DNA of 64,000 bases, taken from positions 1 to 64,000 of the forward strand of contig NZ_AP017564.1 of assembly GCF_003967015.1 (NCBI RefSeq), read 5' to 3'. Of this stretch, positions 5,773-23,963 are shown in pieces. Each line of letters begins with the position of its first letter. Position 1 is the first letter of the stretch. Position numbers and translations under genes: made by a program. The notes under the pieces are model-generated. The model was not told the origin of the DNA. It ran no database searches and saw only the letters and a program-made list of their open reading frames with translations. Source of the DNA: Pseudanabaena sp. ABRG5-3 (GTDB taxonomy: Bacteria; Cyanobacteriota; Cyanobacteriia; Pseudanabaenales; Pseudanabaenaceae).

Positions 5773-5955
5773 ATGCCATTTAGTGAAGCTCCAAACAATG
5801 ATCGCCGAAAAGCGGAACTAGCCAAGTTTGCTGCCGAAATTGTAAAAGACCCATTGAAGCTTAGATTGCTCAGCGATCGCGTTTACGATCTGCTCACTGA
5901 TGATTTACGGCTCCAAAAAGAAAGAATTGGTAGAAACTATGAGGGTAGACTATGA
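5773..5955 (+). CDS. Small protein heading the tail-like locus, shares C-terminus with the giant protein
   Basis: A 60-aa charged protein, first gene of the tail-like cluster. Its stop overlaps the tube gene start (ATGA at 5952-5955), so the two are translationally coupled. Residues about 37-60 (VYDLLTDDLRLQKERIGRNY then EGRL) align without gaps with the extreme C-terminus of the 2531-aa protein encoded two genes downstream, 12 of 24 positions identical. That suggests a shared docking segment. I do not recognise a named family. Small helical proteins next to tube genes in such clusters are often assembly factors, which is inference here. Confidence 0.7.
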   Translation: MPFSEAPNNDRRKAELAKFAAEIVKDPLKLRLLSDRVYDLLTDDLRLQKERIGRNYEGRL

Positions 5956-6458
5956 CTGCTAGCGGATTTACAAGGGCGAATTCCTACGTTACTACCAATC
6001 ATTTCTATGTAGAAATGTCAACCGATTCAACAATTGTGGCTTGTTTTACCGAATGTACGGGATTGAGTGCCAAAGTAAACTATGAAACCTATTTAGAAGG
6101 GGGGAATAATACTCAGCAAAAGATTCTTTTAGGACATACTACCTTTTCAGAAGTGCAACTCAAGCGAGGAGTCACCGATGATCTCAGCTTTTGGAATTGG
6201 TTTACTGCTACAACATCACGACGGCGCAATATTCGGATTTTACTATTCAATCAAGCAGGAGAAACAAGGCAATGCTGGACTCTTATCGGGGCGATTCCTG
6301 TTAGTTGGCAAGCCCCGTCCTTGCAAGCAGACGGTAATGCTGTGGCGATCGAGGAGTTAACTTTAGCGATCGAAGGGTTAACCGTGGCAACCACAGGTGG
6401 TGGTGCAGCTACGGTAGTTACTCGTGATTCTACCAATGGTTCTTTCCCTAGTTCTTAA
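5952..6458 (+). CDS. Phage tail tube protein (T4 gp19 / TIGR02241-like)
   Basis: A 168-aa protein with the usual features of gp19-like tube proteins of contractile injection systems: an N-terminal FYVEM strand, a CTGLSAKVNYETYLEGGN segment, KRGVTDDLSFWNWF, and a C-terminal IEELTLAIEGL. Hexamers of this family stack into the inner tube of phage tails, R-pyocins and eCIS particles. Only one tube paralogue is present, whereas Afp/PVC clusters have several. No sheath gene follows it, which is the usual order. It overlaps the upstream small gene by 4 nt and is followed after 3 nt by the GTG of the giant gene. Confidence 0.88.
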   Translation: MTASGFTRANSYVTTNHFYVEMSTDSTIVACFTECTGLSAKVNYETYLEGGNNTQQKILLGHTTFSEVQLKRGVTDDLSFWNWFTATTSRRRNIRILLFNQAGETRQCWTLIGAIPVSWQAPSLQADGNAVAIEELTLAIEGLTVATTGGGAATVVTRDSTNGSFPSS

Positions 6459-6461
6459 GCC

Positions 6462-9400
6462 GTGTCTGAAAATACCACAACGACCTTTGCCGATAATGAT
6501 GATTTGCCTGATGACATTCCCTTAGGCAATAATTCTCCATTGCTTGTGCCGCAACCATTGGGGCAATCATTTTTACAACCAAAATTTATCTATCCCTTGG
6601 GAGCAGTTTCGATTATCAATCCAGATAACTTGAGTCTTGAAACTGATTTTGAGCCTCTTAGTGATAGTTTCGATAATTCCCCATTTTTTGATAATCCCTT
6701 ACAATCTCATGATTCTGGAGCGATATCTCCATCCAGTACTCAAGTAAATCTTCAAACCAAGTCGCTACCATCATCTCAAAAGTCACAAGTTCAGCGATCG
6801 CCTAATCCTAAAACTCAAAGTACATCAATTCAAAGAAAGGCTTCAGCGCCTAATCAACCAATTAGCTCCAGAAATAGTTCGCAATCAATTGCGACATCAG
6901 AGAACCAAGAATCTCCGCAGGATGTAGAAAATGATGCTCAGTTTCTGCAAAATAGTTCGGATTTATCTATCTCGTCTGATGAGCTAGAATTAGATTTCTC
7001 AGAAAATGTTAGTAATATAGAAAATAAATCTGTTCAAAGATCTTCTGATAACTCTTCTATTGGTGATGTAACAAAGGATTTTACGGATATTTCTCTTGTA
7101 GAGAACATAGATAATTCTGATTTGGAAATATATCAAAATAATGAGTCTAACTCTCAATTAATCCAGAAATCTGCTGATACTTCTAGTTTCGATAGCTCTA
7201 CTAGAGATAATACTATTTCAGAAGATAGACTCAGTCCTAACTCTGAAAACTCGTCCAATCTCACTACAAATACAACTTCTTTTATAAGAGATATCTCTAC
7301 TTCAGATATACAGAGAGAATCCCAATCTCCTAACGTTGTTAACAGTATAGAAAATATAAAAAGCAGGGAAGAAGTTACTAATTTAGACAGTAATTCTTCA
7401 CTAATACAAAGAGATATTGTAAATACTGTCAGTGAAAATATTAGGGTTAGCGATAATAATCAGGAATCTCAAGTAGTTAATAATAATTTTGATAGCTCTA
7501 GTTTAATTAGCTTATCAGTTGATAGTAGTTTACAATCTGAACAATTTCAACCAATACAACGAACAACTAATTTAAGCACTGATATTAATGCTTCTGAAGG
7601 TATTTCCTCAGAAATAGAGCATTCTACTTCTTCAAGTTCAAACTTATCTAGTGAAAAAGTTGATAATTCTAGCTCTCAATCGCAGGAAATACAAAGGCAG
7701 GTTGATGCATACGATCAAGAAAAATTTAGCGATCGCAACGATTCTATCACTATAAACTCTAGCTATTCTAATCTTGTAACAAATATCTCAGAAGATAACT
7801 CCCTTCAAATATCTCAGGAAAATTTATATACTACTGCCAATAGTTCGATTGAATCTATTCAAAGAAATTTAGATGTATCAAATGCATCATTAGAAGACGA
7901 TTTATCTCAAGAAAATAACTTAACAAATTTAATTCAAAGACAACTTGATGCACCTATTGTAGATAGTAATTCTTATCAAGAAGATACTTTAATTAGTAAT
8001 CCTAATCAAACTACACTACAAATATCTAATCATAATCAGCCTTCTCAATCACAAAATCTACAAAAACAACCTGATATCTATACTAGCGATCCTAGTTTAG
8101 ATAATTCCATATCTGGTAATGAACCTCCATCAATTAGTAACAATTCTCAATTATCCAATATTGACTTAGTAATTCAGAAAAAATCTGATATTACAGTAGA
8201 TAATCGAAACCAAGTTACTTCTCCAATTAAATCAACTCAAGACGACACTAATATAAGTGCAATAGAAGAATTAAGTACCAGCAATGAGTTCTTAAATGAT
8301 TATACTACTCAAGATTTATCAAGTGATTTGCTGATAAATAATGTTTCTATAAATAATGCTTCTATAAATACTAACAATATTAATCAAGTTCAGGCAAAAG
8401 CTGATTTATCAACAACAGTAAATAATGATATTTCACAAGATGATTTGCCAAGCGATCACATTTCTGGAATGCAGTCAATAGAAACTCCTGTTACATCTGA
8501 TAGCAATCTAATTACTGGTTTAAATACACTACAAAGAAGTGTTATTTCTCCTAGTCTAGAGAGTGTTAATGTACAACAAAATCTAGTATCTGAAGTTTCA
8601 GAAGATTTGAGTATAAAAAGTGACAAATTAGATGCTAATTCAATAAGTGTTAATAATATAGAATCACTATCACAAATTAATGATTCTCCACCCCCTGCTA
8701 ATTTAGATCCAATATCTGAGCCAGAAGAGAATAATAATTCAAATTATGATATCACTCAAAACACTCTATCTAATGAATACTCTTTAGGAGTTCAAAGAGA
8801 GCTATCTCTATCTCTATCTAGCTCTAGTGGTATTTCCTCTCAAAATAATTTGAACAAATTAATTACAAAAGATAGTTCTCAAATTGACATAAATGAGAAC
8901 TTGGTAGATAGTAAAGCTTCACCAACAATCCAGACTCAGCTATTTCAGGATAATTTGTCTGATACAAGTAGAGATAATATAGAGCAAAGTATTTTATCTA
9001 GTGAAACTAGTAATTTAGAACAACCACTTACAAGAAATGTTACTCAAAGAGATATCAATGAAAACCTAACAGATGTTGTAACTTCTCCAGTAATACAGAC
9101 TTATCTGGATCAGGATAATTTATCTAATACAACTAATATAAATGTAGATAATATAGAGCAAAGTAATCTATATAGTGAAACTAGTGATTTACAACAACTA
9201 ATTGAAGAAGATACTCTTCAATTACATACAGATGAAAACCTGCTAGATGTTGAAACTTCTCCAACAGTACAGACTCAGCTAGATCGGGATGATTTATCTA
9301 ATATAAATAGAGATAATATAGAGCAAAGTAATCTATTTACTGTAACTAGTAGTTTAGATATACAGAAGAAAATCAATTTAGATAATATCTCATCACAAAA

Positions 9401-12400
9401 TGATCTAACTCAGGATGGGTATGACTATACTGATAGACCTGTCGATAATATTCATTTGCAAAGTACTGATAACCAAGGTATTCAAAGGGAAGCCAATATA
9501 GAGACGAGGACTATTGTCTCAAGCGATTTGCAAAACTCTAATATTCAGAGAGATTTAAATGACTCGTCACAAGAATTAAAATTAGATGACTTATCAGATT
9601 CGTTTATTCCTGATGAGGAGATAAATGATAATCAATTAAGCGAAAAATCTGCTAATAGCGATCGCATTGATACATTTACCAATATTCAAAAACAGGAATC
9701 TCAAGAATTTTCTAATTTAGTTGATACTTCCATCTCTTCAGACACTATATCTACCTCAGATACTAACGATATCCAAAGTGATCGCCTTGATAATCAAATT
9801 CAAAGACAGATAGAATCGTCACCTAATAACTTAAATACAGCTCAGGGTTTTACTGATTTAAGTGTAGATCAGAATTTAAGTAGCCCCTCTCAAGAAATTA
9901 TATCTACTTTCAATTTAATTGATATTAGCTATGTTAATTCCCCAGAAATAGAACATTTGACGGAACCATCCCAGTTGCAGAGAAGTAGTTTTAATGTAGA
10001 TGGCATAAGTATTTCAGATATTGAAACTAATATAGATGATATAAACGTCTTATCAAGTAGTCCTGAGCCAGAAATTCAAAGATCATTAGAAACATCTACT
10101 ATAAATATAAATAATCTAGATAGTTCAAATATAGAATTAAATCAAGAAATTCCATTACATGAGTCATCTCAAACAATTGACGACTTGCAATCTATATCTA
10201 CTGAGCGCAATATTGAGCCTAACGATTTAGATAATATTGACTTTGATATACAAAGGCAAACTGATAAATATACTCCAGAAAATTATGACCTTCTTACTGA
10301 TAATATGTCTAATAACCTTAATGATAGTATTGTTCAATTAGATAGCTCACAGTCAGTTGTAGAAAATGTTATTACTAGACAAATAGGGCAAGAAGAGTCT
10401 GATTTGTCTAGTAACAATATTTTAGAAAATGAAACTGAAGAGGTTTTAAAGGCTAGTAATATAGAAGAATCAATTCAAAGAGAAATTGCTGTAGATGCTA
10501 ACGAATCAAATGATCTTCGCAATATCGAAATTTTAGATGTTCAGGCAGATATGAACTCTGATACTAGCCAGATTTCATCTAAAGTTTCGGATCAAGTAAT
10601 TCAAACCAGCTTAGATTCTATTAACACCAATAATGGTTTAATTAGTGATTTGCCTGAGGTTTCTAATAATAATAGTTTAACTGATAATTTAGATAATAGT
10701 TATGCGGTACATGTACAGAAACAGGGTGTACAGAAACAATCTGAAAATATTACTGATTTAGATAATATACCTGATCCGCTGATTCAGAGAGAACCTGATC
10801 CACCTGTTAATAAGTCTATCAACACTGAAGATATTATTTCTAGCCAATCTCCTCAAATAGCAAGAGATTTATCGAGTGAATATAATTCTAGTTATACCAA
10901 TTTAGATGCAGCTAATGACTATTTAGATGCTCCTCTAGCTAATGAGAATAATAGCACAAGTAATTTAGATGAAATTTCTAATGGAAGTGCTAATAATATT
11001 CAGAGGCAATTTGCTAATGATTCAATAGCTGACAGAGTTGACATAATTGATAGTTCTAGTATGAATTCTAGTTATGATCTATCGTCTAGTTTATCGGTTG
11101 AAGATAGTAATACATTGACTAGCGATCGCTCTCGAAGTTTGCCAGTAGAAAATATTCAATCAAGTATAGACTCGTCAACTTCTAACTTTAATTTAGGTGT
11201 TGACGAGAGACAGGCAATACAACGACAAATTAATGAAGATTCTATCAGTTCATCTGTTGACTTAAATGATAGCGATCGCGATTTAGTAGATGTACAGAGT
11301 GCGATCGACACATTTGGTATCAACGAACGCATTTCATTAGCTAACACTTCTAGTACAGATCCAATTTCTGATACATCTAGTAATGATAATCTTAATATTT
11401 CTACTAGTAGAAGTAATGAAATTCAGAGAGAGTTTGATGCAAGTGTAAATGAGATTTCCAATGTAAATGAGATTAGTGCTAGAGATAAAATTAGTGTTGA
11501 GAATATTGATTTAGCTAATAATTCTAATGTTGAAAGAAGCATATCAAACGATATAAATATTCAGAGGTCTCAATTAGATTCTGAATCTTTCATGAATGAA
11601 AATGCAAATGATATAGACAGTATTAATATTGTATCTCCTACTTCTAATCAACAGCTAGTAACGACCTCTGATTTGCCAGTCATAGATAGCAATATTTCCT
11701 TAAGTGGAGAGTCTCAAATTTTACAGAGAACTTTTGCTTTGAATGATACAAGTATAGGTTTATCAAATAATATTTCTATACAAGATGATAATCAGTATGA
11801 TCAGCAACTAAGGCAATCAATTGATAATATTAATAACACTTCTATTTTAACTAGTGATTTATCTCCACAATTACAAAGATCAAGCGATCAATTAGAGGGG
11901 AATCAGCTTAATGGAGAGACTAATGTAGATGAAATATTATCTCAGGGTAAGTTAGCTCAAACAGGTCAAGAGACACAGCAAATAAGTGAATCTGTTAGTG
12001 AGCTAAATCAAACAAGTGGGGAAATACAACGAAAGAATGAGGCATCTATTCCTAATCGATCTCTTGATACCCGTGATTTAGGCGATATTAGTCTAGCTAC
12101 TGTAGAGAGTCCTCAAAATGATCTCTCTGTTAGCTTTAATGACAACCAAGTGTCTAATTTTTCTAGTATCGAAAACATTGATACTGTATCTCCTTCAGTA
12201 TTACAAAGTAAGCCAAACCCAGTTACTGATTCACAAACTTCTTCTAATATTATCAGTAATGATTTTCAGCAGGATGATCCTAGCCAAACTATTCAAAGGG
12301 ACTCTTTAAATAATTCCAATTTAGACGACTCTAATTCGGTAGAAATAATACAAACAAATGCTCTTCTTAGTGATACTGATCCACAAATAATCCAGACCAA

Positions 12401-14057
12401 ATCTAACTTAAGTCAGGCTATTAATAATATAGATAACAATGTTCTAGGAGGTTCTAATGATACTATTCAAGCAAAATATATAAGTACAAATTTAGAATCC
12501 ATAGAATCTATAGATTCTATGGATAGAAATATAGATGTTAATTTAGACGACAATTTTGATAATAATACTGCTAATACATCTAGTGATATCTCAGTTCAAA
12601 GAATATCGAATATATCGGAAATTAATCCTGAAGCTTCTAGCCAGACTACGAATCAAGAATTTGATCACAATTTAAACATATCTGATGTAGAGTTAAACAT
12701 ATCTGATGTAGAGAATATACAGAAAAAATCGGATGATATCAATAACATTGAAAGAATATCAGAGTCTAATATCTCTAGCTCTCCAGCTTTAATTCAAACA
12801 GCTAGCGATGTAGATAATGTAATACAAAATATAGACGATTTAGATAGATTAAATAATAGTAATATTTTGGATACTAATACTAATATTTCTCGCCATAGTG
12901 AAACTGAGAATATTAATAATACTAGTGCTGTTGATAATATTGATATTCACGATATTCAAAGAAAGCCTAAGCAAGATGCTGTTGATAATACTAATATTCA
13001 GGATATTCAAAGGAAATCTGAGCAAGATGATCATATAATTGTTGCAGAATCTTTCAATACAAACAATTTACAAAATGTTGTAGATAGCGATCGCATTTCT
13101 ATTATCCAACCAAAATCAGATATTCCTCAGCTTGAAACTATTTCCCAAAGTGGGATAATCTCAGCAGAGACAACGAATCAATTAGAAGCGACTAATGAGC
13201 CAACAGTAATTCAGAGGTTATCAGATCTAGCAAATCCTACAGAGGATTTGACCTTGCCTACGGTTTTACAAAATCTTGGACAAACAGAACCTTTAGTTAA
13301 GTTCTCATCCTTAACAAACGAGCAACCCAATCACCAGATTACTACGAATAATCTGTCTAATTTATCTAGTAATTCTAATCCATCTAGCCAGTCTAATTTG
13401 TCTAACTCGTCTCGTCTGTCTCAATTACTGCAAGCAAAAGGCAATAGTTCTACTTTGTCTAGCTCAACAAATAAGATATCGACTACACCTACTTCAATTC
13501 AGCCAAAACTTGACCAAAATCAGAATAATGATGCTCAAGAGGCGAAATCTCCTAGCTGGTCAAATATTGCGGAATTGTTAGCAAAGATGCCACCTCCTAA
13601 GGTCTCTAGTAACCCCTCAACTAATTCGCTGAACAAAAAAGCAGTTAGCTCTAGCGATCGCAGTTCTTTGGCAAGCCAACCCAAATCCATTACTACAAGT
13701 ACATCTAAAAGTACATCTAATCAGACAATTATTCAGCGATCGCCCGATGATCGTAATGATGACGATTTAGATCTCTACATCACTCCTACAGGTTTACAAA
13801 GAGGTAATCCCAATCAAGTTACTAATAGTCAAGTTAATCCTATTCAACGTAAAAAAGACCCTCATCAAGATAATGAAAACTTACCAGAAGCAACAGTTTC
13901 TGTGAATAATTTCCAAGATAATGACAATAAAGATGAGGCAAATTTTGAAGAAAATCTCACGGCACTTGCCCAAGAAATTTACGTTTTGTTACGGCAACGC
14001 CTAGAAATCGAAAAGGAGAGACAAGGATCGATATATCGAGGTCGATTGCCTTGGTAA
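6462..14057 (+). CDS. Giant 2531-aa low-complexity protein with repeated [IVL]Q[RK] motifs
   Basis: Starts at GTG 6462, three bases after the tube stop. The chain is dominated by Ser, Asn, Asp, Ile and Gln, has no Cys that I can see, and looks disordered. More than 50 copies of a short [IVL]Q[RKTAS] motif (VQRS, IQRQ, IQKK, LQRS, IQRE) recur roughly every 45 residues from end to end. Three tandem units of about 55, 58 and 51 aa lie at 8880-9370, evidence of growth by internal duplication. The last 28 residues (AQEIYVLLRQRLEIEKERQG, then SIYRGRLPW) match the C-terminus of the 60-aa protein at 5773. The DNA is visibly more AT-rich than its neighbours. By position and length it could be a tape measure/lumen filler or a scaffold; no DUF4157 or enzymatic domain is seen. 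Function not established. Confidence 0.8.
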   Translation: MSENTTTTFADNDDLPDDIPLGNNSPLLVPQPLGQSFLQPKFIYPLGAVSIINPDNLSLETDFEPLSDSFDNSPFFDNPLQSHDSGAISPSSTQVNLQTKSLPSSQKSQVQRSPNPKTQSTSIQRKASAPNQPISSRNSSQSIATSENQESPQDVENDAQFLQNSSDLSISSDELELDFSENVSNIENKSVQRSSDNSSIGDVTKDFTDISLVENIDNSDLEIYQNNESNSQLIQKSADTSSFDSSTRDNTISEDRLSPNSENSSNLTTNTTSFIRDISTSDIQRESQSPNVVNSIENIKSREEVTNLDSNSSLIQRDIVNTVSENIRVSDNNQESQVVNNNFDSSSLISLSVDSSLQSEQFQPIQRTTNLSTDINASEGISSEIEHSTSSSSNLSSEKVDNSSSQSQEIQRQVDAYDQEKFSDRNDSITINSSYSNLVTNISEDNSLQISQENLYTTANSSIESIQRNLDVSNASLEDDLSQENNLTNLIQRQLDAPIVDSNSYQEDTLISNPNQTTLQISNHNQPSQSQNLQKQPDIYTSDPSLDNSISGNEPPSISNNSQLSNIDLVIQKKSDITVDNRNQVTSPIKSTQDDTNISAIEELSTSNEFLNDYTTQDLSSDLLINNVSINNASINTNNINQVQAKADLSTTVNNDISQDDLPSDHISGMQSIETPVTSDSNLITGLNTLQRSVISPSLESVNVQQNLVSEVSEDLSIKSDKLDANSISVNNIESLSQINDSPPPANLDPISEPEENNNSNYDITQNTLSNEYSLGVQRELSLSLSSSSGISSQNNLNKLITKDSSQIDINENLVDSKASPTIQTQLFQDNLSDTSRDNIEQSILSSETSNLEQPLTRNVTQRDINENLTDVVTSPVIQTYLDQDNLSNTTNINVDNIEQSNLYSETSDLQQLIEEDTLQLHTDENLLDVETSPTVQTQLDRDDLSNINRDNIEQSNLFTVTSSLDIQKKINLDNISSQNDLTQDGYDYTDRPVDNIHLQSTDNQGIQREANIETRTIVSSDLQNSNIQRDLNDSSQELKLDDLSDSFIPDEEINDNQLSEKSANSDRIDTFTNIQKQESQEFSNLVDTSISSDTISTSDTNDIQSDRLDNQIQRQIESSPNNLNTAQGFTDLSVDQNLSSPSQEIISTFNLIDISYVNSPEIEHLTEPSQLQRSSFNVDGISISDIETNIDDINVLSSSPEPEIQRSLETSTININNLDSSNIELNQEIPLHESSQTIDDLQSISTERNIEPNDLDNIDFDIQRQTDKYTPENYDLLTDNMSNNLNDSIVQLDSSQSVVENVITRQIGQEESDLSSNNILENETEEVLKASNIEESIQREIAVDANESNDLRNIEILDVQADMNSDTSQISSKVSDQVIQTSLDSINTNNGLISDLPEVSNNNSLTDNLDNSYAVHVQKQGVQKQSENITDLDNIPDPLIQREPDPPVNKSINTEDIISSQSPQIARDLSSEYNSSYTNLDAANDYLDAPLANENNSTSNLDEISNGSANNIQRQFANDSIADRVDIIDSSSMNSSYDLSSSLSVEDSNTLTSDRSRSLPVENIQSSIDSSTSNFNLGVDERQAIQRQINEDSISSSVDLNDSDRDLVDVQSAIDTFGINERISLANTSSTDPISDTSSNDNLNISTSRSNEIQREFDASVNEISNVNEISARDKISVENIDLANNSNVERSISNDINIQRSQLDSESFMNENANDIDSINIVSPTSNQQLVTTSDLPVIDSNISLSGESQILQRTFALNDTSIGLSNNISIQDDNQYDQQLRQSIDNINNTSILTSDLSPQLQRSSDQLEGNQLNGETNVDEILSQGKLAQTGQETQQISESVSELNQTSGEIQRKNEASIPNRSLDTRDLGDISLATVESPQNDLSVSFNDNQVSNFSSIENIDTVSPSVLQSKPNPVTDSQTSSNIISNDFQQDDPSQTIQRDSLNNSNLDDSNSVEIIQTNALLSDTDPQIIQTKSNLSQAINNIDNNVLGGSNDTIQAKYISTNLESIESIDSMDRNIDVNLDDNFDNNTANTSSDISVQRISNISEINPEASSQTTNQEFDHNLNISDVELNISDVENIQKKSDDINNIERISESNISSSPALIQTASDVDNVIQNIDDLDRLNNSNILDTNTNISRHSETENINNTSAVDNIDIHDIQRKPKQDAVDNTNIQDIQRKSEQDDHIIVAESFNTNNLQNVVDSDRISIIQPKSDIPQLETISQSGIISAETTNQLEATNEPTVIQRLSDLANPTEDLTLPTVLQNLGQTEPLVKFSSLTNEQPNHQITTNNLSNLSSNSNPSSQSNLSNSSRLSQLLQAKGNSSTLSSSTNKISTTPTSIQPKLDQNQNNDAQEAKSPSWSNIAELLAKMPPPKVSSNPSTNSLNKKAVSSSDRSSLASQPKSITTSTSKSTSNQTIIQRSPDDRNDDDLDLYITPTGLQRGNPNQVTNSQVNPIQRKKDPHQDNENLPEATVSVNNFQDNDNKDEANFEENLTALAQEIYVLLRQRLEIEKERQGSIYRGRLPW

Positions 14058-14118
14058 ATTTAGAATAGTGGCGATTCTAGCAACTATCCTCATCCTAAAA
14101 ACTAGTAACGGATAAATT

Positions 14119-14565
14119 ATGACAGGACAACTGGTAAAAGCGATGCTTACTACTACTGATGCAGGAGCAGCAGCTATTAATTTTCAGTTTAATCCCACAG
14201 AACTCCAGTTTCAGCGATCGGTCAGTCTCAATCGTTCGGCAGGTGCAAGGACAGCATCAGGACTTCCAAAAGTTACCTTTGGCTATCCTGAGCCAGTCAG
14301 TCTATCGCTTAGCAATTTGGTATTTGATACCTACGAAACAGGTACAAGTGTGCTCACTTTAATTGATCCGATTCTCAAAGCTACAGACTTTACAGGGCAG
14401 TTAGAACGACCACCTGTGTATGTTTTTGCTTGGGGACAAACCCAATACCTTAAATGCTTTGTTAAACAAGTTAGCTACAAATTAACCATGTTTTTGTCTG
14501 ATGGGACACCCGTAAGAGCGATCGTTGATATGTCGCTAGAAGAGGTGGATAGTACCCAACTCTAA
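14119..14565 (+). CDS. CIS tube/baseplate adaptor (Afp7-like N-terminal domain, no LysM)
   Basis: A 148-aa protein with the CIS_tube N-terminal signature: FQFNPTELQFQRSVSLNR, the GARTASGLPKVTFGYPEPVS hairpin and a PPVYVFAWGQTQYLKCFVKQ strand pair. In Afp7/Pvc7 this domain caps the tube at the baseplate hub and is followed by a LysM domain. Here the protein stops after the first domain (ends SLEEVDSTQL). It sits directly upstream of the spike gene, as in other clusters. Confidence 0.8.
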   Translation: MTGQLVKAMLTTTDAGAAAINFQFNPTELQFQRSVSLNRSAGARTASGLPKVTFGYPEPVSLSLSNLVFDTYETGTSVLTLIDPILKATDFTGQLERPPVYVFAWGQTQYLKCFVKQVSYKLTMFLSDGTPVRAIVDMSLEEVDSTQL

Positions 14566-14694
14566 AAAATTCTTGAGATTATGGAGGATTTTGGGATAGC
14601 TAGGCTAAAACTATGGTAAACCCTTAACTTCACCACATTACTTGCCGCGATCGCCACTCAATTTAATCACCAAATTAATCACTAAAAATCGCCA

Positions 14695-16656
14695 ATGCCA
14701 AAATATATACCAGGGGTCTCACTGCAAATTGATGGAGCCGATGCTCCAGAAGGTTTACTGGACAATATTTTACAAATATCTGTCAAAGAGAGTATTCATC
14801 TCTCAGGGATGTTTACGATAATCATCAATAATGATTATTTGTCTGGGGCTAATAATCCGCCTTGGCAGTATGCCAACTTATTTGCATTCGGCAAGAAGAT
14901 TAAAATTAGTTTTACTTCTAGCATTACGGAAAATGTTGATTTCGATGAAGAAACTACTGCATATATCCTAGAGGGTGAAATTACAGCGATCGAGACTGAA
15001 TTCAGTGAAACGGCACAAGCACCAATAATTATTCGTGGTTATGATACTTCCCATCGTCTCCATAGAGGTCGTTATAGTCGTTCTTTCCAAAACGTTACTG
15101 ATAGCGATATTGTCAACCAAGTCATTGGCGAAACTGGCATTGCGGCTGGAACTGTCACCGCTACTACAGTTGTCCATGACTATGTATTTCAAGAGAACCA
15201 GACAAATATAGAGTTTCTACGGGAACGCGCTGCAAGGGTTGGCTTTGAGCTATATATCCAAGATGGTAAGCTGAACTTTCGTAAACCGACTCAAGATCAA
15301 CAACTGTCTCTCAAATGGTTAAAAGATATCCATAGCTTCCGAGTGCGTGTTTCTACCGCCGAGCAGGTTAGTTCTGTGGAAGTAAGAGGGTGGGACTATT
15401 CCCAGAAAAAAACGATTGTTTCTATAAAAAATAAAGAACAGGTCATTACTACAACTGACAGTGGAAAAGGTAGTGAAACTAGCACAAAGTATAGTATTCA
15501 GCCCAAAATGATTGTTGTTGATCAGCCTGTTTTTAGCGCGAATGAATCTGATGCGATCGCCCAGTCGCTATGTGATGAATTAGGCGGAGAATTTGTGAGT
15601 GCGGATGCCAAGGGTGAAGGAAATCCTAAGATCAGACCAGGGATAGCAGTGAAACTTACCAATATGGGCAGCTATAGTGGTAAGTACTATGTTACAGAAA
15701 CTCATCATTTATTTCGGGAGAATCGATACACTACTGAATTCACGGTCAGGGGATTACGTGGAGGCGATCTCTTTTCTATTTTGTCATCCAAAACTTACCT
15801 AGAGCCGGGGCAAACTATGTTAGTGGGAATAGTAAGTAATAACAAAGACCCTAAAGGATGGGGAAGAGTCAGGGTGAAGTTCCCAACTTTAACGGAGGAG
15901 CATGAAAGCAATTGGGCTAGAGTCGTTAGTGTAGGAGCAGGTCCAGGGAGAGGATTTGATTGCTTACCTGAGATCAATGATGAAGTGTTAGTAGCCTTTG
16001 AGCATGGCGATATTCATCGTCCCTATGTGATTGGTGGCGTATGGAATGGAACCGATGCATCACCTGAAACCGTAGATGATACTGTAGTTGGTGGAAAAGT
16101 CCGCTTACGCACTTTTAAAACTCGTGTTGGGCATAAGCTTCAGTTTGTTGAAGAGGATAAAAGCACTATCAAAAAAGGAGTTTATCTTAATACTATTGAT
16201 GGGCATAATTTACGGCTAAATGATAGTGAGAAATTTGGAGAACTAGAAACCACTGGTGGTCATAAGTTTCGTGCTGATGATAGTAATAAAACGGTGAGCT
16301 TAACTTCTACTGGCGATATTACTGTTAAATCTGGCACTACTGGCACTGCCAAGAAAATTAGTGTTAATGGCGGAGAAATTGCTTTAACTGGAAGTCAAAA
16401 AATAACTTTGACTGTAGGAGGAACTAGTATAGAGCTAACTCCGAGTGGAATTACAATGAGAACTACTGGTACTCTCAGTATTCAAGCTAGTGGTTCTATA
16501 AGCGTCCAGTCTGCTGGGTCTATCTCTGCAAGTGCAGGAGGCGCTTTAAGTGCTAACTCAGGTTCTACAATTAGTGTAAATGCAGGTGCGACAGTTAGTA
16601 TTAATGGTGCAGCAACTGTAGGTATTATGGGGGGAATTGTTCGCTTGAATTGCTAA
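14695..16656 (+). CDS. VgrG-like spike protein (gpD + gp5 OB fold + beta-helix tip)
   Basis: A 653-aa protein. Residues 1 to about 370 are a gpD/gp27-like hub (PGVSLQIDGADAPEGLLDNI, RERAARVGFELYIQDGKL). About 375-455 is a gp5-type OB fold (GWGRVRVKFPTLTEEHESNW; PEINDEVLVAFEHGDIHRPY). About 460-653 is a repetitive Ser/Gly/Thr-rich region (GSISVQSAGSISASAGG) that forms the triple-stranded beta-helix needle in VgrG proteins. No effector domain is fused at the end. It would form the trimeric central spike, capped by the PAAR protein encoded next. Confidence 0.9.
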   Translation: MPKYIPGVSLQIDGADAPEGLLDNILQISVKESIHLSGMFTIIINNDYLSGANNPPWQYANLFAFGKKIKISFTSSITENVDFDEETTAYILEGEITAIETEFSETAQAPIIIRGYDTSHRLHRGRYSRSFQNVTDSDIVNQVIGETGIAAGTVTATTVVHDYVFQENQTNIEFLRERAARVGFELYIQDGKLNFRKPTQDQQLSLKWLKDIHSFRVRVSTAEQVSSVEVRGWDYSQKKTIVSIKNKEQVITTTDSGKGSETSTKYSIQPKMIVVDQPVFSANESDAIAQSLCDELGGEFVSADAKGEGNPKIRPGIAVKLTNMGSYSGKYYVTETHHLFRENRYTTEFTVRGLRGGDLFSILSSKTYLEPGQTMLVGIVSNNKDPKGWGRVRVKFPTLTEEHESNWARVVSVGAGPGRGFDCLPEINDEVLVAFEHGDIHRPYVIGGVWNGTDASPETVDDTVVGGKVRLRTFKTRVGHKLQFVEEDKSTIKKGVYLNTIDGHNLRLNDSEKFGELETTGGHKFRADDSNKTVSLTSTGDITVKSGTTGTAKKISVNGGEIALTGSQKITLTVGGTSIELTPSGITMRTTGTLSIQASGSISVQSAGSISASAGGALSANSGSTISVNAGATVSINGAATVGIMGGIVRLNC

Positions 16657-16721
16657 TGAAATTTGCCCTTAATTTTTTCAATTAACTATTGTCACTGCTC
16701 TATTCACTTGTCCTTAAACCT

Positions 16722-17009
16722 ATGTTCCCAGCAGCTCGATTGACAGATATAACAGTTACAGGCGATCCCATTACTGCCCCTGGTATGCCTAATGTATTAA
16801 TTGCTGGCTTACCCGCCGCCTGTGTTGGCGATTTAGTAGCAGGTCCTGTAGTTACAGGCAGTATTGTAATGGGGTCTTTTACGGTTCTCATTGGGGGTAG
16901 ACCTGCCGCCAGAGTTACTTCTCAAGTTGCGGGAGTAAATACCATTACGGGAATACCATTAACTACCGTTGTTGGTATGGGAGCGCCTACAGTACTAATT
17001 GGTGGTTAA
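16722..17009 (+). CDS. PAAR-repeat spike tip protein
   Basis: A 95-aa protein from ATG 16722 (MFPAARLTD), chosen over an upstream TTG at 16689 because PAAR proteins begin close to this motif. Paired PAAR-like motifs are FPAARLTD and GRPAARVTS, with a PITAPGMPNVLIAGLPAAC half and a matching GAPTVLIGG end. PAAR proteins form the sharp conical tip on VgrG spikes and may bind a metal. No toxin extension is attached. It lies 65 nt after the VgrG gene. Confidence 0.88.
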   Translation: MFPAARLTDITVTGDPITAPGMPNVLIAGLPAACVGDLVAGPVVTGSIVMGSFTVLIGGRPAARVTSQVAGVNTITGIPLTTVVGMGAPTVLIGG

Positions 17010-17032
17010 AAGTAAAGTTGCAAGGAGGGAAT

Positions 17033-17437
17033 ATGTCAGAAGCTAATCAATCTAGGGATTACATTGGGAGAGGGCTTTCATTTCCATTGAGAATAAATGT
17101 TCAAGGTGAACTAAAAACTGATAGCGGCGATCGCAATTTGGAAGAGGCGATCGCCATAATTTTGAATACGAAACTAGGTGAGAGGGTATATCGTCCTAAT
17201 TTTGGTAGCCGTTTATCGGATTTGGCTTTTGCCCCGATGAATCCACAGACGATTTTGCTAGCGAGGGTCTATGTGGAAGAAGCCTTAAATCGATGGGAAC
17301 CACGTATTCGGGTTACAGGGGTTTTTGCCGAACCTGATCCGATTAAAGGTCGTCTCGATCTCAAAATTTTATATCAACTCAAAGATGGACATGATACTCG
17401 TAGCATGGTGTATCCGTTTTATCTATTAGGTAAGTAG
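17033..17437 (+). CDS. gp25-like baseplate wedge protein
   Basis: A 134-aa protein of the gp25/GPW family (PF04965): GRGLSFPLRINVQGELKT, NLEEAIAIILNTKLGERVYR, PNFGSRLSDLAFAP, then a helix that sets the baseplate edge. The ATG at 17033 is preferred over the in-frame TTG at 17018 because AAGGAGGG (17022-17029) stands at the right distance. gp25 links the baseplate wedge and, in contractile tails, nucleates the sheath, so its presence without a sheath gene is notable. Confidence 0.9.
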   Translation: MSEANQSRDYIGRGLSFPLRINVQGELKTDSGDRNLEEAIAIILNTKLGERVYRPNFGSRLSDLAFAPMNPQTILLARVYVEEALNRWEPRIRVTGVFAEPDPIKGRLDLKILYQLKDGHDTRSMVYPFYLLGK

Positions 17438-17569
17438 CGAAAAGTAGCATTTTTAATTTGTTATGCTATCTATGTTTAATCTTTTTTAAATAATTTAGTA
17501 ATTTATCGCTAAATGTAGCTCTAACTAGTAAAATTCGGCAAGGCATAATTCACTAGAGAGCTTTGGGTA

Positions 17570-19804
17570 ATGACAAGAGAGTTTGATTTTCTCCCTAATT
17601 TGCCAAAATCTGATCTTGACGATCGCACATTTGCAGAATTAGTGAATGAATGTCTGCTGAGAATTCCTAGATATTGTCCTGAATGGACAAATTATAACCC
17701 TAGCGATCCTGGGGTGACATTGATCGAGCTATTTGCTTGGTTAACCGATCAAATGTTGATGAGGTTTAATCAGGTTCCAAGACGGAATTACGTTGCCTTT
17801 TTAGAATTACTTGGTATTCGGCTCCAAGCCCCCGCACCTTCGCAGACAGAAGTGACTTTTTATTTGAGTGCCTCTCTGCCTGAAGCCTATACCATTCCTG
17901 CGGGGAGTGAAGTTGCGACCTTACGCACAGAGGATGAAGAGGCAATTATTTTTAGTACTGATCACCCACTTGTGATTGCTAAACCGCGCATTGCTCATCT
18001 CTTAGCCGCACCCACAACGCAGGAAAAACCAGAATATTTACGCGATCTCTTGCAAGATGTCTGGACAGAAGATCCTGAACAGGAATGGTCTGGGCAGGAA
18101 ATAGCACTATTTAGCGATCCGCCACAGCCAAACAACTGTTTTTATGTAGTCTTTGATGAAAATCAACCGATTGACGGAAATGTCATTGCCCTCAAATTTA
18201 AAGGAGAATCAGCAACTACTACAGGGATTAATCCCAATAATCCCCCAAGGTATTGGGAAGCATGGGATGGATATGTCTGGCAGCCTGTGTTGTTAAAGGA
18301 TAGTGACGATCGCACTAAGGGGTTTAGCTTTAGTGAATTGGCAAATGAGGGGATTAATCCTTTACAAGGAGCCGAAATTATTTTTCATGTACCGTTAACT
18401 TGGAATGTGTCACAGTTCTCTACCTATCGGGGACGTTGGCTCCGATGTAGCTATGTAGAACTAACGGGAAACCAAGCGGGCTATAGCCGATCGCCCCATA
18501 TTATCGGAATGAGTGCCCGTGCGATCGGGGGAACGGTGACGGTGACGCAATGCCATGCCATTACCAATGAAGTTGTGGGCGAGAGTAATGGCAAAGCGGG
18601 ACAGGTTTTCTATTTACTAAATAAACCTGTTTTACCAAGAAAAGAGGATGAATACTTACTAATTACGCCGCCTGTGGGATTACCGCAAATATGGCATGAG
18701 GTGGAGAATTTTTCGGAGTCGGGAGCTAATGATTTGCATTATGTGATTGATTCCACCTCTGGCATGATCCAGTTTGGTCCTTTTGTGCAAGCACCGAATT
18801 ATCAGAGTCAACATACTTTACAACGCATGAGACTCCAAGGTGAGCCAATGCAAAGGGTACTGCCCGATGGTATGAGTAAGATCGCGATTAATAGTGACTC
18901 CAATCAAAACCTCAATTCCCGATCAAGTGGTAATCAGTATGGAGCGATACCGCCTAAAGGATCAGTCATTCAAATGGTGAAATATCGCACTGGTGGAGGC
19001 TTTCGCGGTAATGTGCAGAAGGGAAGTATTCAAATTGCTAAAAATGCAATTCCCTATGTGGCAAGTCTCACCAATCATTTATCCGCTTGCAATGGAGCAG
19101 ATGCCGAATCCCTTGATGATGTTGCCATCCGTGTTCCGAAAATGCTAAAGACTCGCGATCGCGCTGTGAATCAATCGGATTTTGAATATTTGACGCTCAT
19201 TGCGGGGGAAGGTGCAGTGGCAAGGGTTCTCTGTACACCTGCCAAACGAAGGGAAGATGCAGGTATTGTTAAGCTGTTAATCGTGCCGAGGGTCAGAACA
19301 GAAGGTATTGATCAGGGACAGGGGATTGCACCCGAACAATTTGTTTTAACTCCACAATTAAGCGATCGCATTTTGAATTATCTCGATGAACGCAAGATGC
19401 TAGGGGTGCAGATTCAATTGGAACCACCAAAATATGTGGGTGTATGCGTACAGACAGAAATTGCCCTTGAAGCAACCTATAGTAATCCTCTGGTACAACA
19501 GGATATCGTTCGCAATTTGAAAGTAATGCTATATCGTTTTCTCAATCCCATTAATGGAGGTGTGCAAGGACAAGGTTGGGAATTTGGTCGCCCTGTCTAT
19601 CCTTCTGATATTGTCAAACTATTGCAAAATGTACAGGGAGTGAGATTTTTAGGCACAGTACAGTTATTTGAACTGCGCTATGAAAATGGCGAATGGGTGC
19701 GAAGACTTTCCCCACAGCCAATTATTGACCCCAGCCCAACGGGTTTAATATGTTCTTGGCGTAGTCCAAGGTTCCGATCTAGCCATGTAATTAACATTGT
19801 ATAG
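17570..19804 (+). CDS. Baseplate J-like assembly protein
   Basis: A 744-aa protein of the large baseplate J/gp6 family found in eCIS and related clusters (TIGR02243-like). The N-terminal pattern is CPEWTNYNPSDPGVTLIELF and FAWLTDQMLMRFNQVPRRNY; the core includes YRTGGGFRGNVQKGSIQIAK and AVNQSDFEYLTLIAGEGAVA. J proteins form the ring of wedges around the spike hub. Length is in the usual range for this subfamily. It follows gp25 after 132 nt. Confidence 0.9.
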   Translation: MTREFDFLPNLPKSDLDDRTFAELVNECLLRIPRYCPEWTNYNPSDPGVTLIELFAWLTDQMLMRFNQVPRRNYVAFLELLGIRLQAPAPSQTEVTFYLSASLPEAYTIPAGSEVATLRTEDEEAIIFSTDHPLVIAKPRIAHLLAAPTTQEKPEYLRDLLQDVWTEDPEQEWSGQEIALFSDPPQPNNCFYVVFDENQPIDGNVIALKFKGESATTTGINPNNPPRYWEAWDGYVWQPVLLKDSDDRTKGFSFSELANEGINPLQGAEIIFHVPLTWNVSQFSTYRGRWLRCSYVELTGNQAGYSRSPHIIGMSARAIGGTVTVTQCHAITNEVVGESNGKAGQVFYLLNKPVLPRKEDEYLLITPPVGLPQIWHEVENFSESGANDLHYVIDSTSGMIQFGPFVQAPNYQSQHTLQRMRLQGEPMQRVLPDGMSKIAINSDSNQNLNSRSSGNQYGAIPPKGSVIQMVKYRTGGGFRGNVQKGSIQIAKNAIPYVASLTNHLSACNGADAESLDDVAIRVPKMLKTRDRAVNQSDFEYLTLIAGEGAVARVLCTPAKRREDAGIVKLLIVPRVRTEGIDQGQGIAPEQFVLTPQLSDRILNYLDERKMLGVQIQLEPPKYVGVCVQTEIALEATYSNPLVQQDIVRNLKVMLYRFLNPINGGVQGQGWEFGRPVYPSDIVKLLQNVQGVRFLGTVQLFELRYENGEWVRRLSPQPIIDPSPTGLICSWRSPRFRSSHVINIV

Positions 19805-19883
19805 AAACATCGTATAGAAGTTTTGATTTTGCTGCTATAGACAAAATCGCCCTTTACCTCAGAAAATCCTATGGCTCAAACCT

Positions 19884-20963
19884 ATGGCTCAAAAAAGTAA
19901 GCTGCAAGCGTTAAGTGTTCGCCTAGTCTCAATGAAGTCCCCTGAGGCAAATGAAGAAACTCTTGCCAGCGCTGATCTGAGCAATGGGAAGCAAGAGTTT
20001 ACTTTGGCTGTGAATAGAGGGCGATCGCCAAATGATTGTAAATTGCTGATCCATCCTAGTGAACCTAGCGAAATTGTTGTTAAGCTGAAAAACTCCAGCA
20101 ACCGATCACTCTTAACTGACTTGCGTGTAGAGGGCAATTTCCCTAGCGAATGGTGTCAAATTGGGATGGAAGGGAACGAGCTACTACCCCATACTGAAAT
20201 GGAAGCCGTTTTATATTTCCAAGTTCCTGCGGACTTTTTTGAGGGGCAAGAAGCGATCGCACAGGGGCAATCTCTCACAATTAACTATCATGGGCTATTA
20301 CAGGTTTACGGTGGCTATGCCAGCACTAATTCAGGTACAGAAACTTTAGAATTAACCTCCCGCCTAGAACTATTTGATATTGAACCCTTTCGTCTATATG
20401 TGCGACCGACGAGCCTCTATTTAGACTTTCTGCCCGATGTCTATCGTGAAGTTGATTTTGTGGGGCGAATGCTCAAAATTTTTGAGGAATGCTTTGAGCC
20501 TGATGTGCAAATTTCCGATGCACTATGGGCATATCTCGACCCGATGCTTGCGTCAGAGCCGATGTTGCCATTTCTTGCCCATTGGGTGGGTTGGGAGTTA
20601 GTTCCTAACCTTGATATGCAGCGTCAACGCTATTTGATCAAACAAGCGATGAAAATCTACCGTTGGCGGGGAACCCGTCGCGGTTTGCGATTTTATATTC
20701 ATTTGTTTACGGGCTTGCCCCTTGATGAGCATTTACCTGAACATGAAAAACATATTAGTATTTTTGAGATTACAGGTCGTGGTTTTGTGCTTGGGGAAGC
20801 ATCTCTGGCGATCAATGCATCGACAGGGGGAGGTAGACCTTTTCATTTCATTGTGAGGATTCGTAACGATTTACAAAATAGCCTCGATTTATCGCTAATT
20901 CATCGGATTATCGAACAGGAGAAACCCGCTTTTTGTACCTACGATTTAGAAATTACGAGATAG
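19884..20963 (+). CDS. Tail protein I-like protein with N-terminal Ig-like domain
   Basis: A 359-aa protein. Residues about 1-170 look like an Ig/beta-sandwich domain. Residues about 185-300 match the TIGR02242/P2 gpI-like tail domain: YLDFLPDVYREVDFVGRMLK, LPFLAHWVGWELVPNLDMQR, WRGTRRGLRFYIHLFTG. It would complete the wedge with J. A 13-bp tandem duplication at the start places a second ATG at 19871 in another frame, which opens only nine codons; the ATG at 19884 gives the full protein. Its stop lies inside the hairpin at 20960-20990. Confidence 0.85.
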   Translation: MAQKSKLQALSVRLVSMKSPEANEETLASADLSNGKQEFTLAVNRGRSPNDCKLLIHPSEPSEIVVKLKNSSNRSLLTDLRVEGNFPSEWCQIGMEGNELLPHTEMEAVLYFQVPADFFEGQEAIAQGQSLTINYHGLLQVYGGYASTNSGTETLELTSRLELFDIEPFRLYVRPTSLYLDFLPDVYREVDFVGRMLKIFEECFEPDVQISDALWAYLDPMLASEPMLPFLAHWVGWELVPNLDMQRQRYLIKQAMKIYRWRGTRRGLRFYIHLFTGLPLDEHLPEHEKHISIFEITGRGFVLGEASLAINASTGGGRPFHFIVRIRNDLQNSLDLSLIHRIIEQEKPAFCTYDLEITR

Positions 20964-20990
20964 AAAGTGGCGCTTTGCGCCACTTTCTAT
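20960..20990 (+). terminator. Perfect 14-bp hairpin, 3-nt loop, after the tail I gene
   Basis: Left arm 20960-20973, loop TTT, right arm 20977-20990, perfect complementarity. It overlaps the stop codon (20961-20963) of the tail I gene. There is no strong T-run after it, so it may be a processing or stability hairpin within the locus rather than a full stop. Confidence 0.55.
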
Positions 20991-21043
20991 GAACATTTTA
21001 AGATTTAGAAATTATTTAGATTTAGATTTAGATTTAGTTTTTT

Positions 21044-22519
21044 ATGAATGACTTTCCCTATCCCGAAATTCAGTCCTTTGAGCGGTTACAGGTATCCGAT
21101 GGCTTGATGATTAATAGTGAGCGTTGGCGACTAGCTCACGAATATCACCAGCAACGCCAAAATGTACAGTTTCAGTCCTTGTTTCTACCTGGCATTATCT
21201 GTGGCTTAGGTGTTGCACCTATTGAAGCCCCTGCGGACTTGCCAGCAAAATTTCGGGATGGGCGTTGGGTACAGATTCAACCAGGGATTGCGATTGATCT
21301 CTATGGCAATTTTATTGTTGTTCCTACACCTCTAGACTTTCGGATTTCTACGGCAGCTTACGATCGCCAAATCGAATTGGTCTATCTAGTACTGAGCTAT
21401 GTCGATCCCGCTAAACTCAAGCGAGCAGCTAGTAATGAAGTCCTTGTAGAAACCTTTCGGGTTAATGAAAAAACTGATCCACCCGTAGATACTGATATTG
21501 AGATTTGTCGAATTGCGATCGCTGAAGGTGGGTTGGAAATTCAAAAGCCTGCGGATCTGTTTGTGCCTACGTTATCTGAATTGGATATGCGTTATCGGCT
21601 GAAAGCGAAGCTCCGTCCTGAAAATACTATTCGTATTGCTTACTTTCGTGATCATCCAAATAGTGATCGTCCAAATAGCGATCGCCAGAATTTAGAAATA
21701 GCCATCCATCAAAACTTTAAATTTTTAGGACAAGCAATATCCAGTCTTGCTCCTAGCCTCAGTCTTGCTGACAAAATTGGGAATCTTGATCTGCAAGCAG
21801 AACTTACCCCTAGTCAACTCCTGCCCTATCAATTAATTTACTTAAATAATGCTCAAGCTGCAACTTTAAATGAAGCTACTCAACTCGCCTTAAGAGAATA
21901 TGTGGATCATGGTGGTTTGATTCTAATTGAAACCGATATCCATAATACAAAGCTGGAAAATCTCCTAGCAGTGAAGTATGAACTGCAAAGTGCTAATGCT
22001 AAGCTGAAAAAAAATTCTGCCTCACAATTTAATGATCAGTTTAATGGCAGTGGTGCTGATTACTCTAGTATGCAGGCAGAAATTCAATCTGAAATTGAGG
22101 CGATCTCGATCGAAGTTCAGTCCCAAGCCGATGAGTTCTTAGCTACTTTCAAAAGTAATCTGCCAATGGAAGCACCAATGCGGAACTTTGCAGAACTAGA
22201 GAGAAACCATCCTCTGCGTAGTCAACCATTTCTATTTGCAAACTTACCCATGATCATCGAGCAGCCCATTCAAGTTTTAACAAATGGCGGCATCATCACC
22301 ATATTTGGTTTCCTTTCGGAGCTTTGGGGTGGTTTGGCAGATATTCAAGAGCTTTCGCGAGAGCAGATTCGGACTTTCCAAGAATTAGGAATTAATATCC
22401 TCAACTATGCAGCTCAGCGTCATGCGATCGCTAGTTCAATGCAGATTAATCCTAAATACGCCAGTAATGCCACAGCGACAAGCGATCAACGCCGTATTAC
22501 GAATATGACTGCTAGTTAG
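21044..22519 (+). CDS. Baseplate accessory protein with DUF4159-like domain
   Basis: A 491-aa protein. The N-terminal part (RLQVSDGLMINSERWRLAHE, then FLPGIICGLGVAPIE) resembles proteins of tail-like/eCIS clusters that begin with an RxLHN..GWGVVCGL-type motif. Residues about 210-460 resemble DUF4159 (YVDHGGLILIETD; LSREQIRTFQELGINILNYA). That fold is related to the flavodoxin-like domains that begin ThuA/GATase-type proteins. A short internal duplication (NSDRPNSDRQ) is present. It probably sits at the baseplate rim; no enzymatic role can be argued from the sequence. Confidence 0.6.
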   Translation: MNDFPYPEIQSFERLQVSDGLMINSERWRLAHEYHQQRQNVQFQSLFLPGIICGLGVAPIEAPADLPAKFRDGRWVQIQPGIAIDLYGNFIVVPTPLDFRISTAAYDRQIELVYLVLSYVDPAKLKRAASNEVLVETFRVNEKTDPPVDTDIEICRIAIAEGGLEIQKPADLFVPTLSELDMRYRLKAKLRPENTIRIAYFRDHPNSDRPNSDRQNLEIAIHQNFKFLGQAISSLAPSLSLADKIGNLDLQAELTPSQLLPYQLIYLNNAQAATLNEATQLALREYVDHGGLILIETDIHNTKLENLLAVKYELQSANAKLKKNSASQFNDQFNGSGADYSSMQAEIQSEIEAISIEVQSQADEFLATFKSNLPMEAPMRNFAELERNHPLRSQPFLFANLPMIIEQPIQVLTNGGIITIFGFLSELWGGLADIQELSREQIRTFQELGINILNYAAQRHAIASSMQINPKYASNATATSDQRRITNMTAS

Positions 22520-23951: not shown

Positions 23952-23963
23952 GAGAACCCATCG

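Follow-up and report, generated by a model that had tools for sequence, protein, structure and literature searches.

A giant disordered protein with a presumed cargo motif in the spike-plug slot of a cyanobacterial contractile injection system

The stretch of DNA analysed here (the window) comprises the 64,000 nucleotides at positions 1 to 64,000 of NZ_AP017564.1 from the cyanobacterium Pseudanabaena sp. ABRG5-3, is part of contig C5 of a 5.66-Mb genome, and carries half of a contractile injection system (CIS). The slot that holds a small plug in characterised CIS here holds a giant disordered protein of 2531 amino acids (the giant) with a presumed cargo motif, beside a mini paralogue of its putative anchor (the mini protein). 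This arrangement is new, as is the sharing of the motif, hQR or hQxK (h, hydrophobic residue; x, any residue), between the giant and proteins with the eCIS_core domain (DUF4157); no literature on such a giant protein or on the motif was found within open-licence PMC papers. The giant can be read, with a probability of slightly under one half (about 0.47), as a structural, cargo-like component of the CIS that occupies the Cis6 slot, is anchored by its helix and extends its chain into the tube lumen, where the motif would serve as a cargo address.

The giant protein and its C-terminal helix module

The giant gene (6462..14057, on the forward strand, as are all features of the giant and of the CIS located below) is the largest open reading frame (ORF) of the window. 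As originally predicted, it lies directly after a tube gene, begins with a GTG codon 3 nt after the TAA of that gene, and encodes a protein that is rich in Ser (16.9%), Asn (12.6%) and Asp (9.9%) and lacks Cys. The composition also agrees with the predicted disorder, because 218 of 249 segments along the chain fall on the disordered side by the Uversky measure; the exception is a C-terminal helix of 30 residues. The net charge is -269, and 59 of the 139 K/R residues fall within motif windows. Neither eCIS_core (PF13699), DUF5908 nor any other Pfam domain was found in the giant at E 0.1, and a search against PHROGs gave a weak match alone (0.0081).

Slot homologues consist of a conserved N-terminal segment and a C-terminal helix separated by a variable middle. 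In the giant, the N-terminal segment (PLG..PLL.P.LGQSFLQPKF.YPLGA..., 6513..6701), which is recognised in alignments, is predicted to be unstructured, with a predicted local distance difference test (pLDDT) score of 31-52. The C-terminal module (..LTALAQEIYVLLRQRLEIEKERQG.., 13935..14024) was modelled with AlphaFold2 on the last 120 residues, which are predicted to form a single confident helix of 30 residues (residues 81-110; pLDDT block means 82, 97 and 85) and little else.

The tube gene (5952..6458) encodes an inner tube protein of the gp19 family (PF06841, 1.7e-35; TIGR02241, 3.5e-37) that is nearest to the CIS5 tube-adaptor family (CIS5_fam, 2.1e-20). Its score against the CIS5_fam model, 72.9 bits, is below the cut-off of 260, and the protein is nearer to the CIS5 adaptor than to the main tube model. 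On its upstream side, a 60-aa ORF (5773..5955), whose end shares 4 nt with the start of the tube gene, encodes the mini protein; this ends LLSDRVYDLLTDDLRLQKERIGRNYEGRL, its C-terminal end reading LSDRVYDLLTDDLRLQKERIGRNYEGRL, and carries a helix module of the giant type. Profiles built from the C-termini of such mini proteins and from those of giants are homologous (hhalign probability 95.5, P 1.4e-8), so that the proteins encoded on either side of the tube gene, one short and one giant, share a C-terminal module. When ORFs upstream of the tube gene were surveyed in the window and at 77 named loci (78 in all), a hidden Markov model (HMM) of the giant helix matched 32 of 442 same-strand ORFs versus 0 of 501 opposite-strand ORFs at E 0.05, and 51 versus 1 at E 1. 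The putative anchor module beside a CIS5-like tube gene, for which the pattern L[AS]..[VI]Y.LL...L....ER.G was defined here, is present in the window.

The tight link to the tube that had been proposed from the position of the giant gene is supported, because the gene order is kept in many cyanobacterial genomes, in which a giant-type gene follows the tube gene, and because the helix module is common to the ORF that overlaps the tube start. At E 1e-20, 80 of the 290 class genomes have a gp19/CIS5-like tube gene, and the lowest-scoring matches probably represent another tube type. With 89-93% identity in the tube protein, seven named relatives stand nearest: five Pseudanabaena, a Phormidium tenue and an uncultured cyanobacterium. 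The helix pattern stands at the C-terminus of 78 of 105 unique complete slot ORFs; these 78 span 266-3277 aa, and 73 of them also have an N-terminal LG..L pattern. One slot ORF (L054:2087-5020, genome G036) ends in two tandem helix modules, and four draft contigs (L036, L042, L043 and L048) break off inside the giant gene.

A motif shared with DUF4157 proteins

More than 50 regularly spaced [IVL]Q[RK] motifs, one every 45 residues or so, had been predicted in the giant. The strict pattern occurs 42 times, as compared with 2.6 +/- 1.6 and at most 8 occurrences in 1000 shuffled sequences, and totals above 50 are reached with relaxed patterns (54 for [IVLM]Q[RKTA]; 51 for hQ(R/K or xK)). From first to last motif, the motif-bearing disordered region occupies 6750..13853. 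The mean spacing is near the predicted value (48.5 residues, n=51; 44.6 residues, n=54) and the motifs are more evenly spaced than by chance (coefficient of variation (CV) 0.59 versus 0.91 +/- 0.12 under random placement, P 0.0005), with no fixed period, since the best Fourier power, 2.96, is below the shuffled-interval mean of 4.84. Evenness of spacing was found at P <0.01 in 13 of 15 chosen motif-rich slot proteins (P 0.08 and 0.41 in the others), whose mean spacing ranges from 23 to 79 residues.

A tandem-repeat search with TRF returned five rows in the giant gene, the largest at 8917-9356 with 2.6 copies, and two rows in the gene of an orthologue bearing 78 motifs; because these rows are so few, young DNA tandem repeats are not the main source of the motifs. 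In 10 orthologue pairs, 29 of 30 comparisons showed stronger conservation of residues inside motifs than of the same kinds of residue outside them, although the alignment may favour motifs; the sole exception was the basic residue in the pair L040/L041.

Proteins with DUF4157 (eCIS_core) have been proposed or shown to be CIS cargo in published accounts (excerpts of PMC8894136 and PMC11297309, among others). In 26 cyanobacterial DUF4157 proteins, three of which are from the ABRG5-3 genome itself, hQ(R/K or xK) occurs 307 times versus 66.9 times after shuffling, with 188 of the motifs before the DUF4157 domain, 33 inside it and 86 after it. Among ORFs of the fetched loci, the ratio of observed to expected motifs is 8.76 for the slot class (109 ORFs), 4.70 for ORFs with a DUF4157-like pattern (78) and 1.08 for the others (1093). 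Five of these 1093 are outliers: two (L198 and L099) have N-termini that resemble DUF4157 proteins by eye, without HExxH, one (L151) is a piece of a slot protein, and two (L205 and L206) are ORFs on Planktothrix contigs that are 85% and 47% N. The motif is common to the giant and DUF4157 proteins and specific among the ORFs examined. Both classes have the same hQR/hQxK core and differ in its flanks, slot proteins having D/E three residues after R and DUF4157 proteins having acidic residues and QMK. Enrichment of hQR/hQxK, which is defined here and not in the literature as a cargo-like feature, is thus found in the giant, and the giant-type helix was detected in 0 of the 26 cyanobacterial DUF4157 proteins at the inclusion threshold.

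Possible role of the giant and alternative explanations

According to excerpts of PMC8894135 and PMC8894136, Cis6/Alg6 is a small plug that sits as a trimer in the cavity of VgrG and consists of an N-terminal strand, a flexible loop and a C-terminal helix, and the loop of Anabaena Cis6 extends into the tube lumen. By locus number, the canonical 50-aa Cis6 of Anabaena (Asl3322) comes after All3323. Small proteins that match DUF5908 lie between the tube and LysM/cis7-like genes at two further loci (L062 and L063), where gene identities were assigned partly by eye, and the one at L063 matches the PDB chains Algo6 and Asl3322. The DUF5908 family was matched in just 13 of 290 class genomes, and in the ABRG5-3 genome not at all at E<=0.01. 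The giant fills the plug slot and may work like the plug; the original suggestion of a lumen filler is plausible by synteny with Cis6. Other large proteins were observed in related systems: in two genomes of the same genus, the cis6 slot of another CIS type also holds a low-complexity protein of 943-1060 aa (L059:9093-11924 and L060:9055-12237) that ends VERKII.RLIVEGERRGKRKWL and gives a weak giant-helix HMM match or none, and the DUF5908-type CIS of a family relative has a 1358-aa ORF (L062:13095-17171) after a gp25-like ORF assigned by eye.

In the favoured reading, the helix modules of the mini protein and of the giant would anchor at the junction of tube adaptor, hub and spike, with the mini protein as an anchor by itself and the giant as one to which a long acidic disordered chain is attached; this chain would run into the tube lumen. 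The hQR/hQxK sites may represent a short address that is also used by DUF4157 cargo and has a common binding site on the tube wall or the loading ATPase. They would dock on repeated sites in the tube that cargo uses too, and the chain would fill, lubricate or organise the lumen together with cargo. In published excerpts, a DUF4157 protein of Streptomyces davawensis co-elutes with spike and tube-initiator proteins, and for such a protein of S. lividans a role in connecting an effector with the core of the baseplate has been proposed.

Four Deinococcus records show, on sequence evidence, the putative anchor helix and a cargo domain combined in a protein that looks intact. Altogether, five of five Deinococcus plasmids have an ORF of 1259-1973 aa (starts uncertain) with eCIS_core (E 1.3e-9 to 5.6e-15), and all five proteins carry the giant-type C-terminal helix (E 1.3e-5 to 5.9e-5 among 97 sequences). 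In three records, the slot protein comes directly after a gene annotated as phage tail protein; a second tube ORF was not recognised in D. actinosclerus. Elsewhere, the helix HMM matched slot proteins of Rhizobium (335 aa, 0.007) and Rhodococcus (85 aa, 0.012) weakly and that of S. clavuligerus not at all.

A number of observations weigh against the favoured reading. DUF5908 (PF19265) matched neither the C-terminus of the giant at E<=5 nor the whole protein at E<=0.1, and the helix of the giant and mini protein gave P 0.04-0.08 and 0.024 with DUF5908 Cis6 in hhalign, by which homology is not established; the giant is therefore not filed as a DUF5908 member. In an AlphaFold2 model of a natural read-through of tube and giant N-terminus, the N-terminus is not docked on the tube monomer (pLDDT 31-52). 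The hQR motif is nearly absent from the Deinococcus slot proteins (0-3 copies), and some cyanobacterial slot proteins have just 266-280 aa with 0-2 motifs, so that neither great length nor the motif is essential in all lineages. In D. grandis pDEGR-1 (L271:12001-15780), one ORF comprises a gp19 tube domain, a long linker, eCIS_core and the giant-type helix, which might be taken for a "Rosetta stone" fusion. However, the gp19 domain in it corresponds to the first (cis1-like) tube (96.6-98.7% to those of three relatives), the second tube is gone, and just the last ~290 residues are recognisably slot protein; because this pattern suggests that a deletion brought the first tube gene and the end of the slot gene together, the ORF is given no weight for the mechanism.

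Space in the lumen is a further point on the same side. One giant would take up ~337 nm3, and three would take up ~1011 nm3 of a lumen of 1257 nm3 (4 x 100 nm, an assumed size), which leaves little room for cargo; mixed oligomers of mini protein and giant would therefore leave more. We entertain, as a tentative and rather doubtful extension of the favoured reading, that hQR/hQxK is an unrecognised address for the lumen or loading machine, present in a few to a dozen or more copies in DUF4157 cargo and in dozens in an anchored giant plug, and that mixed oligomers (for example, two mini proteins and one giant) would tether the disordered chain as a lumen brush.

The relation between motif and cargo across genomes also falls short of the favoured reading. 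Across the 49 genomes that remained once second copies and any ORFs that were open, contained N or lacked the helix pattern had been left out, motif number correlates with the number of DUF4157 proteins (rho 0.53) and slot length does not (rho 0.09). The correlation is driven by differences between families, because permutation within families gives P 0.15; rho is 0.79 in the Pseudanabaena family alone (n=9, P 0.011) and 0.44, -0.08 and -0.12 in three other families. Slot proteins from DUF4157-negative genomes have 0-1 motif in five of five closed, helix-bearing cases (shuffled means 0.7-1.8), four of which are of one family, with lengths of up to 3277 aa. Two further such proteins are an open 550-aa piece in G109 with 0 motifs and a second copy in G078, set aside, with 1 motif versus 0.6; a further DUF4157-negative genome, G321, is outside the count, and the named contig that apparently corresponds to it (L219) breaks off shortly past the tube gene. 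When motif-poor loci were named before the search, 19 of the 19 genomes searched, those with slot proteins of 0-1 motif among them, proved to have DUF4157 genes, and motif number and DUF4157 number in this blind set gave rho 0.30 (P 0.21). The strong form of the idea, that the motif follows the presence of DUF4157, had some initial support from the five closed cases and is contradicted by this blind test and is not significant within families. Because the test failed, motif-rich slot proteins are considered one state among several, and the motif is not necessary for the slot.

The role of a ruler with one motif per tube ring, also offered in the original prediction, is rejected. Nine complete slot proteins of the Pseudanabaena family have nearly constant lengths (CV 0.071) and yet carry 31-92 motifs (CV 0.29), and homologues of 2500, 2736, 3239 and 3277 aa without any motif all still follow the tube gene. 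Since motif-free homologues keep the slot, an essential role of the motif is refuted as well.

Among alternatives, the giant may be a payload that is ejected on firing, with the helix as a delivery tag, rather than a structural plug. This explanation, which we consider unlikely, is favoured by the motif common to the giant and DUF4157 proteins, by the eCIS_core domain of the corresponding Deinococcus proteins, and by the S. davawensis effector Tme, which according to published excerpts is large, ~70% disordered, carries DUF4157 and is linked to baseplate proteins. However, the giant has no eCIS_core or other Pfam domain at E 0.1, its helix module also occurs in the mini protein, which at 60 aa is unlikely to serve as a comparable payload, and none of the 26 free cyanobacterial DUF4157 proteins has the helix.

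Less probable is that the giant is a tape-measure protein that sets tube length, no relative of Cis14 having been recognised in the locus. Scans of the CIS ORFs of the window against Pfam and NCBIfam, and of nine neighbouring ORFs against Pfam, returned no such family (no Afp14 profile was searched); this absence is not telling, because the CIS of Streptomyces likewise lacks a typical tape measure in the excerpted account (PMC10066040). In favour of a tape measure, the giant is the largest ORF of the window, and length is nearly constant within clades (CV 0.071 as above and 0.063 in 19 Nostoc-type slot proteins) while the sequence turns over. Against it, both ends for which models were made are predicted to be largely unstructured apart from the C-terminal helix, the whole is disordered by composition and not coiled-coil, and proteins in the same slot range from 266 to 3277 aa across cyanobacteria.

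Just as improbable is the explanation that the partner of the motifs is the loading ATPase (cis15) or another adaptor. The giant would then act as a scaffold for loading, bringing ATPase and cargo to the tube as it grows, and would not have to be located in the lumen. An AAA ATPase gene lies ~18 kb past the window, the motif is shared with cargo, and the ATPase Pvc15 of the Photorhabdus virulence cassette (PVC) facilitates loading of effectors with N-terminal signals (excerpt of PMC11495950); however, binding of the motif to the ATPase is putative, and the motifs are spread over ~2360 residues and not placed at the N-terminus. Neutral drift, by which a disordered linker between two needed ends would have acquired motifs as by-products of composition bias or repeat expansion, fits the wide variation in length and motif number, the motif-free homologues and one orthologue (L044) visibly built of repeats, and is nevertheless very improbable in view of the shuffling, which controls for composition, the scarcity of DNA tandem repeats, the conservation of motif residues (with the alignment caveat above), and a motif shared with DUF4157 proteins and not with the 1093 other ORFs taken together.

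Neighbouring genes and comparison with known systems

The CIS gene run extends over 5952-22519. Downstream of the giant, it encodes a CIS_tube protein in a cis7-like position (14119..14565; PF19266, 4e-21), a VgrG-like spike (cis8; 14695..16656; PF04717, 5.3e-27), a PAAR tip (cis10; 16689..17009; PF05488, 2e-13), a gp25-like protein (cis9; 17018..17437; PF04965, 2.4e-20) and two baseplate proteins, namely a cis11-like baseplate assembly protein (17570..19804; TIGR02243, 6.4e-179) and a cis12-like tail_TIGR02242 protein (19884..20963; TIGR02242, 2.6e-31). A possible cis13-like protein follows (21044..22519), with a weak match to NF053767 that is below the cut-off (3.2e-8 over 22-119). Further CIS genes are found ~70-84 kb along the same contig, encoding a Pvc16-type cap, a sheath and three more gp19 tube proteins (sheath and tubes at 72-76 kb), and the AAA ATPase mentioned above (L058 18191-19954; PF00004, 2.1e-24). 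The cis1-like tube genes of this part are closely followed by an opposite-strand gene for an LRR-Roc-COR protein (L058:11925-14522; COR-A, 1.5e-43). In the window, the gene at 3070-5481, before the mini and tube genes, encodes a protein that matches a kinase weakly and has a phosphate-binding-protein-like domain (PF12849); in Pseudanabaena relatives, the tube gene is preceded by an ORF whose C-terminus is similar. The CIS genes of the window are followed directly by genes for a Cache/HAMP protein and a WD40 protein (22575-26132). RNA families and tRNAs were not found in the window.

How effectors are recognised and held in CIS tubes is an open question, and a recent machine-learning survey of extracellular CIS toxins states that the loading signal of PVC and the antifeeding prophage (Afp) has revealed no specific conserved sequence (PMC11297309). 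A motif shared by DUF4157 proteins and a tube-linked giant makes this question directly testable, and the pair of mini and giant anchors would give the spike/tube junction of a large group of cyanobacteria an architecture that is so far undescribed.

Compared with the phage tail tape measure or Afp14, which the giant would resemble at most in the way it works, as the largest ORF of the tail cluster and one expected in the lumen, the giant differs in that neither a long helix nor a coiled coil is predicted for its two ends, the parts that were modelled. Tme (BN159_7576) of S. davawensis resembles it in the features given above, and Sle1/Sle2 of S. lividans combine a coiled-coil effector with a DUF4157 partner; these proteins differ from it in having coiled coils, transmembrane segments and, in Tme, a nuclease domain, and the excerpts that describe them mention no hQR array or plug-slot helix. 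The Deinococcus slot proteins (L276, L277, L278 and L279, and the tube fusion L271) are likewise long, near tube genes and equipped with the same C-terminal helix, and differ from the giant in the presence of eCIS_core and in having almost no hQR motif. The AlgoCIS cargo proteins Cgo1/Cgo2, which have DUF4157, are described in an excerpt of PMC8894136 as having a disordered N-terminal domain and were found as lumen cargo; cyanobacterial DUF4157 proteins have the hQR/hQxK motif in common with the giant, which itself is without eCIS_core, as they are without its C-terminal helix. Finally, the chains of Cis6/Alg6/Asl3322 (DUF5908) that were compared have 50-52 aa with an N-terminal strand, in contrast to the 2531 aa of the giant. 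Nevertheless, the giant is encoded in the same slot between the cis5 tube adaptor, for which the tube protein here scores below the CIS5 cut-off, and cis7, and is likewise predicted to end in a single C-terminal helix.

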